From positions 1 to 22,118 of IMG/VR virus record IMGVR_UViG_3300024520_000534: a DNA stretch of 22,118 nt. The stretch is one strand, 5' to 3'. The stretch comes from a virus. The position numbers and the translations under genes were made by a program. The notes below the pieces were generated by a model. It saw only the letters and a program-made list of their open reading frames with translations. It had not been told where the DNA came from and ran no database searches. Positions 858 to 17,989 of the stretch are shown piece by piece. Numbering within the stretch: the stretch's first letter is position 1; every line of letters starts with the position of its first letter.

Positions 858-1808
858 ATGGCTACTGCCAACGTCTCGCGCTTAGGTCAGATTAACTCCG
901 CAGGAGATGCGAAAGCTATCTTCCTGAAGGTTTTCTCTGGTGAAGTGCTGGTCGCGTTCAACGAGACCACGCAGTTCATGGAGAGGACTTCATCGCGGAA
1001 CATCAGCTCCGGCAAGTCGGCGCAGTTCCCGGCCTCCGGTAAGTCCAGCGCGAGCTACCACACTCCGGGTGTGGAACTCACGGGTCAGGCTCTCAACCAT
1101 GCAGAGCGGGTTATCAGCATCGACGACATGCTGCTTTCCGACCACTTCATTGCTTTGATCGACGAAGCGATGAACCACTACGACGTTCGTCAGATTTACT
1201 CGAAGCAGATGGGCGAAGCTCTGGCCGTCACCGCGGATCAGAACATTGCTCAGGTCATGGCGCTTGCCGCCAAGGCTTCTGCGACCGTCACCGGACTGTC
1301 CGGTGGGTCCGAGTTCAACTCAGCGAACATGCCCACGTCGGGCACCGAGCTGCTTACCGGGGCGTATTCCGCCGCGCAGGCACTCGACGAGAAGGATGTA
1401 CCTCAGGGTGGGTTCCCGAATGGTGCAGCCAACGGACGTAACATGTTTGTGCGTCCGGCCTCGTACTACGATCTCGTGCAGAACACCGCCGCGATTGACC
1501 GGGACTTTGGTGGCGAGGGCAGCATCGCGGCTGGTACGATCTTCCGCGTGGCTGGTCTGGACATCATCAAGACCAACAACCTTCCTTCCACGAACATCAC
1601 GACAGGCCCCGCGGCCTATCAGGGTGACTTCTCCAAGCTGGTCTCTTGCGTGTCGCACAGCTCCGCTGTCGGTACTGTCAAGCTGGTCGACTTGCGGACG
1701 GAAATGGGCTACGACATTCGGCGTCAAGGTACGTTGCTCGTCGCGAAGTACGCGATTGGCCACGGCATCCTTCGTCCGGAAGCCGCAGTCAACCTCAACG
1801 ACACCTAA
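858..1808 (+). CDS. Major capsid protein (T7 gp10-like)
   Basis: The 316-residue product matches the T7 gp10 family along its length, at a size slightly shorter than T7 gp10A. Recognisable blocks are AIFLKVFSGEVLVAFNETT (about residues 20-38), ISSGKSAQFP (49-58), the HAERVISIDDMLLSD region (81-95) and DEAMNHYDVR (102-111), all with close counterparts in T7 gp10. It forms the HK97-fold icosahedral shell. Start choice: the ATG at 858 follows a purine-rich stretch and gives the expected short N-terminus before the conserved LKVF block. A structured leader precedes it and a strong intrinsic terminator follows 30 bases after the stop, so it is probably expressed as its own high-level unit. I see no slippery heptamer near the end for a gp10B-type frameshift extension. 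Confidence 0.97.
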   Translation: MATANVSRLGQINSAGDAKAIFLKVFSGEVLVAFNETTQFMERTSSRNISSGKSAQFPASGKSSASYHTPGVELTGQALNHAERVISIDDMLLSDHFIALIDEAMNHYDVRQIYSKQMGEALAVTADQNIAQVMALAAKASATVTGLSGGSEFNSANMPTSGTELLTGAYSAAQALDEKDVPQGGFPNGAANGRNMFVRPASYYDLVQNTAAIDRDFGGEGSIAAGTIFRVAGLDIIKTNNLPSTNITTGPAAYQGDFSKLVSCVSHSSAVGTVKLVDLRTEMGYDIRRQGTLLVAKYAIGHGILRPEAAVNLNDT

Positions 1809-1837
1809 GCCGGTGTGGTTGTTTGGTTCGAAAATCT

Positions 1838-1872
1838 ACCGGGTGGTCCCTCACGGGGCTTCCCGGTTTTTT
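1838..1872 (+). terminator. Strong rho-independent terminator after the capsid gene
   Basis: ACCGGG (1838-1843) pairs with CCCGGT (1862-1867), and GGTCCC (1845-1850) continues the stem with GGGGCT (1855-1860), with one T-T mismatch between the two blocks and a TCAC loop (1851-1854). Six T follow and overlap the base of the stem (1867-1872). The position corresponds to Tphi of T7, which lies just after gene 10. Confidence 0.9.
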
Positions 1873-1903
1873 GGTAGGATCAGGGTTCGAGTCCCTGCCT
1901 ACC
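1873..1903 (+). other. tRNA minihelix-like hairpin (T arm stacked on an acceptor-like stem)
   Basis: GGTAGG (1873-1878) pairs perfectly with CCTACC (1898-1903), then CAGGG (1881-1885) pairs with CCCTG (1893-1897), with the loop TTCGAGT (1886-1892) and a two-base AT bulge on the 5' side. The loop fits the tRNA T-loop consensus TTCRANY and the stem has the invariant G-C closing pair. It therefore looks like a tRNA from which the D and anticodon arms are missing. No 5' tRNA half that pairs with this acceptor exists within 80 bases upstream, and no CCA follows. It begins immediately after the T tract of the capsid terminator. It could be a tRNA remnant, an attachment-site-like fragment or a functional structured RNA; the sequence alone does not decide. 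Confidence 0.6.
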
Positions 1904-1912
1904 TCTGTTTTG

Positions 1913-1922
1913 ACAACTCACA
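1913..1922 (+). promoter_or_regulatory. ACAACTCACA motif, copy 1, upstream of tail tubular A gene
   Basis: ACAACTCACA recurs with one mismatch (ACTACTCACA) at 17990-17999, also in an intergenic gap just before a gene. The core ACTCAC is also the centre of the T7 RNA polymerase promoter, but similarity beyond the core is poor. It may be a phage-specific promoter element; this is weak evidence from two copies. Confidence 0.2.
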
Positions 1923-1961
1923 GTTTACATTTCTGCACACATTCCACACTAGGACAACATC

Positions 1962-2972
1962 ATGGCAGACTACATCGTTGCGCTCGTGGCTCAGACAGAG
2001 CTGGAGGCGATTAACGAGATGCTGGCAGCCATCGGCGTTGCTCCCGTAGCCGACATCACCACCACGACCAGCCGAGACGCCGTCTTGGCCAAGAGTGTAC
2101 TCTCTACCGTGGCGCGTGAAGTGCTGCTGGAGCGGTGGCGGTTCAACTCAGAATTCGGCGTCCAGATTCTCCCCTCACAGAAGATACTCTGGATAGACGA
2201 TATCGACAGCGCACAGAATACCCTCAACGTCTTCGAGGTTCCAGTGCGCGGGCAGTCCAGCACCAAGCAGCGAGCGTTGCTGCGCTGGAAGACCTCCGAT
2301 CACATCAATGTTCCCGGCTCCGGCTTCGTCAATCAGGCGGGCTTGGGCGTAGCGCTGCAGCCCCCAACTTCCAACGAGTTGGTTGACGGCGCGGCGCAGG
2401 CTATCACTGCAATCACAGACGCCGCGGCTGCCGTGGTCACGATTACAGGCCACGGCTACCTCGACGGGCAGACCGTAGTCATCGCCGGGACGGACAGCAC
2501 CCCGGTTATCGACGGTTCTCGCGTCATCACGCTAGTCGATGATGACAGCTTTTCCGTTCCTGTTACCACTACGGTAGTGGGCACCACAGGAACCAGCACG
2601 AATGAAACCCCGCAGCTCATCTTCTACGACACGTTCAGGGGCCGCGACGGCTTCCTCAGCACCGAGCGAGACGCTCTGTACATTGACGCTACGTGGTCGA
2701 CTGACTTCGTGGACATGCCACAGACGGCTCGTGACTACATCATCAAGCGGGCAGCTCGCCGCTTCGCATCACAGGTGGTAGGCGCACAAGACATGGTGGG
2801 CTACACCGCACAAGACGAACAGATCGCTCGGCGCACTCTCCGCAGGGAGCAGGGGCTGGAGCGCAAATTCAACATACTCAACAACCCGACCACGCGCATG
2901 GCACATGGCCGCACACGATTCGTCGTGAACAGCCAGCCTGACAGCGCGCAACCTCGGGGAGGAACAGCATAA
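1962..2972 (+). CDS. Tail tubular protein A (T7 gp11-like), with an inserted beta domain
   Basis: The start of this 336-residue protein (TELEAINEMLAAIGVAPV, about residues 12-29, then an REVLLERWRFN block at 52-62) is the hallmark of the T7 gp11 adaptor or gatekeeper family, as is the C-terminal part with YIIKRAARRFA (259-269). The protein forms the ring between portal and nozzle. T7 gp11 is about 200 residues, so this one is much longer. The extra length lies mainly at about residues 145-210 and contains a VVTITGHGYLDGQTVVIAG pattern followed by IDGSRVITLVDDDSFSVPV, which resembles the small barrel-like domain often labelled FCCH-like in phage tail proteins. The ATG at 1962 is preceded by CTAGGA (1949-1954). 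The stop is directly abutted by the next ATG. Confidence 0.92.
   Translation: MADYIVALVAQTELEAINEMLAAIGVAPVADITTTTSRDAVLAKSVLSTVAREVLLERWRFNSEFGVQILPSQKILWIDDIDSAQNTLNVFEVPVRGQSSTKQRALLRWKTSDHINVPGSGFVNQAGLGVALQPPTSNELVDGAAQAITAITDAAAAVVTITGHGYLDGQTVVIAGTDSTPVIDGSRVITLVDDDSFSVPVTTTVVGTTGTSTNETPQLIFYDTFRGRDGFLSTERDALYIDATWSTDFVDMPQTARDYIIKRAARRFASQVVGAQDMVGYTAQDEQIARRTLRREQGLERKFNILNNPTTRMAHGRTRFVVNSQPDSAQPRGGTA
2394..2591 (+). other. Inserted FCCH-like beta domain within tail tubular protein A
   Basis: Residues about 145-210 have an alternating hydrophobic pattern with TGHGY, DGQTVVIAG and DDDSFSVPV turns and strands. It separates the conserved N- and C-terminal parts of the gp11-like protein. 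The domain label is from pattern recognition and is tentative; exact edges cannot be set by eye. Confidence 0.5.
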
Positions 2973-17892: not shown

Positions 17893-17908
17893 GGGGGCTT
17901 CGGCCCCC
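17893..17908 (+). other. UUCG-tetraloop hairpin before the tRNA
   Basis: GGGGGC (17893-17898) and GCCCCC (17903-17908) form a perfect 6-bp stem with the extra-stable TTCG loop. It lies 10 bases after the stop of the preceding gene and 5 bases before the tRNA. No T run follows, so it may protect or separate transcripts rather than end transcription. Confidence 0.75.
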
Positions 17909-17913
17909 ACCCT

Positions 17914-17986
17914 TGGCCTCTAGCTCAACTGGCAGAGCGTCCGGCTGTTACCCGGAAGGTTGCAGGTTCGAAGCCTGCGGGGTCAG
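17914..17986 (+). tRNA. tRNA-Asn (anticodon GTT)
   Basis: All arms form. The acceptor TGGCCTC (17914-17920) pairs with GGGGTCA (17979-17985) using two wobble pairs. The D arm is GCTC/GAGC (17923-17926/17935-17938). The anticodon stem TCCGG/CCGGA closes the loop CTGTTAC with GTT at 17947-17949. The T arm GCAGG/CCTGC holds TTCGAAG. U1-A72 and discriminator G73 agree with bacterial tRNA-Asn. The 3' end reads G then CTA, so CCA is not fully encoded and would be added or repaired. It sits in the gap between two virion genes. Asn is frequent in the fibre and nozzle proteins and is written mostly AAC, which this tRNA reads. Confidence 0.93.
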
Positions 17987-17989
17987 CTA

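Follow-up and report, generated by a model that had tools for sequence, protein, structure and literature searches.

The window analyzed here, the whole 22,118-nt stretch of IMG/VR virus record IMGVR_UViG_3300024520_000534, carries genes for a major capsid protein and a tail tubular protein A, separated by a gap that contains a terminator, a tRNA-like element and a 22-nt flank shared with a relative. The features of this region are:

858–1808, plus strand: major capsid protein gene (T7 gp10-like; PHROG 267, E 3.2e-76)
1838–1872, plus strand: capsid terminator, hairpin 1838–1867 plus T run 1867–1872 (fold)
1873–1878, plus strand: acceptor-like 5′ strand GGTAGG (sequence, fold)
1879–1880, plus strand: 2-nt linker AT, replacing the D and anticodon arms (sequence)
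1881–1897, plus strand: T arm, made of CAGGG 1881–1885, TTCGAGT loop 1886–1892 and CCCTG 1893–1897 (sequence, fold)
1898–1903, plus strand: acceptor-like 3′ strand CCTACC, followed by TCTG, with no encoded CCA (sequence)
1910–1931, plus strand: TTGACAACTCACAGTTTACATT, 22 nt, between the element and gp11, common to the relative L004, where it lies 3′ of that phage's own element
1962–2972, plus strand: tail tubular protein A gene (T7 gp11-like), the next gene (PHROG 446, E 6.4e-34)

The element at 1873–1903 reads GGTAGG-AT-CAGGG-TTCGAGT-CCCTG-CCTACC, with 11 of 11 pairs formed and a canonical T loop. RNA folding returned exactly this 6 + 5-bp hairpin with its 2-nt bulge (−17.0 kcal/mol, z −2.95), and folding the terminator and the element together gave −39.3 kcal/mol (z −4.87), which none of 200 shuffles equaled. 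The fold has the layout of a minihelix, an acceptor-like stem stacked on a T arm behind a single-stranded 5′ leader. A preliminary description of this DNA had proposed a T arm and a 6-bp acceptor-like stem joined by an AT linker, which sequence and fold confirm to the base; the T run ends at 1872 and GGTAGG begins at 1873, so the element does start directly after it as described, and TTCGAGT at 1886–1892 agrees with the TTCRANY loop assigned there. The first base of the T run, T1867, can pair with A1838. A strong terminator has been mapped at the same place, after the capsid gene, in the T7-like phage LUZ100 (PMC10134795).

The minihelix is not a chance product. We scanned the 22-kb window for a TTCRANY loop on a 5-bp stem with at least 4 acceptor pairs and a linker of 0–4 nt, and the element at 1873–1903 was the single occurrence, against 0.015 expected per window from first-order shuffles under this lax motif; with at least 6 Watson-Crick acceptor pairs, 0 of 400 such shuffles produced one. 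There is no cloverleaf at the element: ARAGORN calls only a tRNA-Asn at 17914–17987 in the window, and the Rfam tRNA model has no match at the element. An origin from a tmRNA, which has a similar T arm, was considered and rejected, as the element lacks G3-U70. The 22-nt flank TTGACAACTCACAGTTTACATT may be a promoter or other signal; a repeated phage promoter was rejected, because a search of the window that allowed 3 mismatches found the stretch only once.

Elsewhere in the window, at 17893–17987, a GGGGGC-TTCG-GCCCCC hairpin is closely followed by the tRNA-Asn (GTT), which is intact. The tRNA-Asn genes in the records of the relatives L003 and L005 have acceptor and T stems quite different from the window's. 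In Rhizobium phage RHEph21 and in LUZ100, tRNA-Asn lies upstream of the capsid gene. A few bases after it, and still upstream of that gene, RHEph21 has another tRNA-like sequence (L144, 146–219), which ends in ACCA and is apparently degenerate.

The capsid–gp11 slot in related phages

Besides L002, which is 99.9% identical to the window, the clade comprises three other lineages, with capsid identities of 87, 86 and 80%. All three (represented by L003, L004 and L005) have a tRNA-like RNA of differing sequence in the capsid–gp11 slot. L003 carries a complete tRNA-Ile (GAT) a few bases 3′ of the terminator T run, which has nothing in common with the window element beyond the T-loop consensus. In L004, TCAG-TTCGG-TTCGACT-CCGAA-TTGA forms a 9-bp T-arm hairpin (9/9 pairs, including one G-U). 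The L005 fold lacks a D arm and consists of an acceptor of 7 bp (TTTGGCC/GGCCAAA), a long middle arm and a T-arm-shaped hairpin of 5 bp whose loop is CTCACGA. Across the four lineages, the T stem is paired in 20/20 cells while 4 of its 5 pairs have changed on both sides, and none of 500 shuffles reached this percentage paired. The window element is a real tRNA-derived or tRNA-like element in a clade-specific slot. The close relatives have paired tRNA-like folds rather than the absent or unpaired hairpin that, in the preliminary description, would have counted against the element. That description's suggestions of a tRNA remnant and of a structure belonging to the capsid transcript hold in part, as the slot of the relatives is occupied by tRNA-Ile or by perfectly paired tRNA-like folds.

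Fourfold-site differences between the clade lineages are 0.40–0.66, indicating that they split long ago and that an unselected 11-bp stem would rarely have stayed intact, with a probability of about 0.02 if each site has changed by 20% and 0.004 if by 30%. As the clade has only four lineages, each with a different structure, tRNA genes may have been gained and lost independently, including by separate recent gains. Further members of the clade were sought in viral and genome contigs with gp11, both as a single sequence and as an alignment, with the shared flank and with a capsid alignment; none was found, and the whole 31-mer had a near-identical contig as its sole match in viral contigs. At about 50 more distant T7-like loci (32–59% capsid identity), the terminator is mostly present and no such element lies 3′ of it.

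The sequences flanking the terminator can also pair across its T run, as AGTAAA/TTTACT in L003, ACTGAA/TTCAGT in L004 and CTACC/GGTAG in the window (1836–1840 with 1873–1877). In L004 and in the window, such pairing and the tRNA-like hairpin would be in competition.

Similar elements in other viruses

Among phage isolates, a sensitive search gave as closest match an unannotated intergenic element of cyanophage Syn5, immediately 5′ of the capsid gene, which S-TIP28 also has. Both share the form GGTAG-linker-GCAGGG-TTCGATT-CCCTG[C/T]-CTACC, and the Syn5 element reads GGTAG AGCTGGTGCGCA GCAGGG TTCGATT CCCTGC CTACC. Syn5 and the window are 95.8% identical over a 24-base stretch from the T arm and the 3′ acceptor strand, and the 5′ acceptor GGTAG is also common to both; the database score is weak (E 0.06–0.3). 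The cyanophage elements resemble the window's in their GGTAG/CTACC acceptor, their CAGGG/CCCTG T stem (with one G-U in S-TIP28), their strand and their place after a GC hairpin in the capsid region of a T7-like podovirus, whereas they differ in having a D-like linker of about 12 nt and in lying upstream, not downstream, of the capsid gene. In sequence, the window element corresponds to the Syn5 element with the D-like linker cut to a few bases. Common descent of the two is likely rather than proven, because the E value is weak and T loops are constrained.

The same search also matched unannotated gaps in Streptomyces phages. Multi-copy elements of the same design occur in Streptomyces phages phiCAM (L271) and Izzy (L272), with 10 copies per genome each, and in Mycobacterium phage Konstantine (L276), with 7 in the region read. 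These 27 model matches lie on the sense strand in gaps between consecutive genes, commonly 6–20 nt from the preceding stop codon; one phiCAM copy overlaps the following gene, as annotated, by 9 nt at its start. Among gaps of at least 60 nt, the element is present in 9/10 in Izzy, 7/10 in Konstantine and 8/11 in phiCAM. We compared 15 distinct copies at 13 pairs (5 bp of acceptor, 6 bp of T stem, one linker pair and one tertiary pair from linker to T loop), finding that 13/13 were 100% standard and 9/13 had changed on both sides. None of 500 shuffles reached this result, and slid controls were paired in only 28–49% of cells. The tertiary contact takes a third pair type (C-G) in two further copies. 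Like the window element, the Streptomyces and Mycobacterium elements have an 11-bp acceptor/T stack and a TTCGAGT loop and are intergenic on the sense strand; unlike it, they have an 11-nt linker with a conserved GG, the linker–T loop tertiary pair and 7–10 copies per genome, with no T-run terminator directly before them.

A covariance model derived from the Streptomyces copies (R1) matched Syn5 (29.7 bits), S-TIP28 (26.5 bits) and Halorubrum pleomorphic virus 1 (HRPV-1; 21.4 bits) at full length; in the window only model positions 18–34 (the T arm) were matched, at 19.7 bits (E 0.029), with no full-length match. The archaeal virus His2 has a short-linker version, and linker length ranges from 2 nt in the window through about 6 in His2 and 11 in the Streptomyces phages to about 12 in Syn5. 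HRPV-1 (L274), His2 (L273), Lactococcus phage 4268 (L275) and Peppino (L151), like phiCAM, Izzy and Konstantine, carry these intergenic tRNA-like RNAs unannotated. The element is multi-copy and strongly covarying in the Streptomyces and Mycobacterium phages and single in the other viruses. BLAST with one copy returned 856 places in 141 phage records, with almost no annotated features under the matches; Rfam gave nothing above threshold in the phiCAM stretch tested, and a literature search found no published description of the multi-copy intergenic elements. The design of the window element relates it to a larger set of tRNA-like RNAs between viral genes, a set that is apparently undescribed.

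We also considered a general class of T run plus short T-arm hairpin in IMG/VR and rejected it: the matches listed were mostly 3′ ends of real tRNAs and tmRNAs. Among these listed matches, acceptor pairing of at least 5 was seen in 7 against 4.7 expected, and with no excess of short acceptor pairing, a terminator followed by a minihelix is not a common arrangement.

Separately, we observed message-less tmRNAs, 80–83 nt long and scoring 61–76 bits with the Rfam tmRNA model, from which the whole mRNA-like and pseudoknot part is missing. One lies at 1498–1580 (minus strand) of L109, the same as 1812–1894 (minus strand) of L142 (contig of the relative L005), and others occur in L130, L131 and L133 to L139; several stand at the head of tRNA arrays. 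In 8 of 8 distinct sequences, G3-U70, A73 and CCA (ATCA in L142) are kept, and the 7-bp acceptor and the T arm are both perfect. These RNAs could be charged with alanine yet lack a tag reading frame. A literature search found no published description of them.

A proposed role for RNase P, and alternative readings

The reading we favor, to which we give about an even chance, is that the window element, whether derived from a tRNA or mimicking one, punctuates the late transcript of the phage and is recognized by RNase P. We infer cleavage by RNase P, or by another tRNA-maturation enzyme, and the consequences for the mRNA from the following. Of a tRNA, the element retains just the half in which acceptor and T-stem/T-loop are coaxial, which is the smallest module recognized by bacterial RNase P. 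Hairpins made of acceptor and T arm are cut canonically by the bacterial enzyme, whose substrates also include the M3 and C4 RNAs of phages and the T4 gene 32 mRNA (PMC11143913; PMC11221534). On RNA that continues past the capsid terminator, the cut by host RNase P would fall at U1872/G1873. Upstream of the cut, the capsid mRNA would finish with the terminator hairpin and its U run, just as it does after termination; the downstream product would be an mRNA for gp11 and the genes beyond it, whose base-paired 5′ end would resist 5′-dependent decay. In the Streptomyces and Mycobacterium phages, R73-C74 follows the element in 26/26 copies whose flanks were listed, which fits RNase P. Against this reading, the window element lacks a 3′ RCCA (TCTG is found instead) and the D-loop GG, and its 11-bp stack is one pair short of the 12 bp of tRNA. 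RCCA is preferred for efficient processing by RNase P, and T4 precursors without CCA are still substrates (PMC11143913).

The main alternative is a functionless relic: an internal deletion would have removed the D and anticodon arms of an ancestral phage tRNA, tRNA-Ile or another, and what is left would now only be drifting. The L003 slot does hold a real tRNA-Ile, whose TTGGCC...GGCCAA acceptor is common to L005, and one or two tRNAs are frequent in this group of phages, with tRNA-Asn present in the window, in the L003 and L005 records, in RHEph21 and in LUZ100. Pure decay is nonetheless disfavored because the three non-tRNA versions keep perfect stems (11/11; 9/9 with one G-U; the acceptor and T stem of L005) despite old splits. 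The likeness of the window and L003 elements in the T-loop consensus alone and the retention of the same acceptor and T stems in Syn5 and S-TIP28 also speak against it, and overall we find a relic possible but rather doubtful. A plain structural hairpin, acting as a tandem terminator or as a 3′ or 5′ mRNA-stabilizing stem whose T-arm look is secondary, would account for a stable hairpin that adjoins the terminator and is followed by TCTGTTTT. This is improbable, since a generic stem would not retain a TTCRANY loop or give way to a genuine tRNA, and no T run follows the relatives' elements; as a tandem terminator the element was rejected on the evidence of the relatives, and in the window itself it is followed by no more than TCTGTTTT.

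The preliminary description had also raised an attachment-site-like fragment, that is, an attP derived from a host tRNA. Fragments of tRNA can occur in T7-like phages that have an integrase, and LUZ100, where a tRNA-Leu adjoins the integrase (PMC10134795), counts in favor of such an origin. In the five clade records, most of which are fragments, there was no Phage_integrase match, and the proposed search for a host tRNA 3′ end returned 0 exact matches to the 23-nt 3′ half of the element in 84,980 species genomes. The element also has a 5′ acceptor strand, which an attP of a tRNA 3′ end does not need, and we consider this origin scarcely credible. The Streptomyces-phage copies, and these alone, could be taken for repressor stoperators, which would act as DNA operators and not as RNA: intergenic stoperators, eight or more in number, are reported from R4-type Streptomyces phages (PMC10276819). 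Here the half-sites change by compensatory pairs (9/13), the orientation of the copies is fixed relative to the genes, and the same fold recurs in Mycobacterium and Halorubrum viruses and cyanophages, making stoperators very unlikely.

Extending the RNase P reading beyond the window, we tentatively suggest, with less than even confidence, that reduced tRNA-like hairpins, up to 10 in a genome, serve phages and some archaeal viruses as marks at which RNase P cuts operon mRNA into messages of separate stability. Of these hairpins, the one in the window would be the most reduced natural form, an acceptor/T-arm minihelix so placed that cutting gives the capsid mRNA the end that the terminator gives it. 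If so, phage mRNA would be punctuated by tRNA-like structures as in mitochondria, through the host's essential RNase P and with no phage protein needed, and conserved unannotated gaps in well over 100 sequenced phages would be explained. The elements would then be natural minimal substrates for studying RNase P requirements in vivo. Several carrier phages are in laboratory culture, making the reading directly testable.

Among known systems, the model substrates of RNase P (AT1/pATSer type) share with the window element a single hairpin, a 7-nt T loop and U at position −1; the window element differs in having 11 bp with a 2-nt bulge rather than 12 bp, in lacking a 3′ RCCA and in being a natural phage sequence inside an mRNA. 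The mascRNA and MEN beta tRNA-like RNAs (RF01684), cut by RNase P in animals, are likewise tRNA-like without a full anticodon arm and stand at the 3′ end of an mRNA or ncRNA. Against a gathering threshold of 42.5, Syn5 (23.4 bits) and phiCAM (22.3 bits) match the RF01684 model at full length and the window through its T-arm segment only (16.4 bits), all below threshold, and we claim no homology. Mitochondrial tRNA punctuation of polycistronic RNA and the phage C4 and M3 RNAs also use tRNA-like structures to mark cut sites between messages. By analogy only, the window would carry such a mark as a reduced minihelix, its cleavage being proposed.
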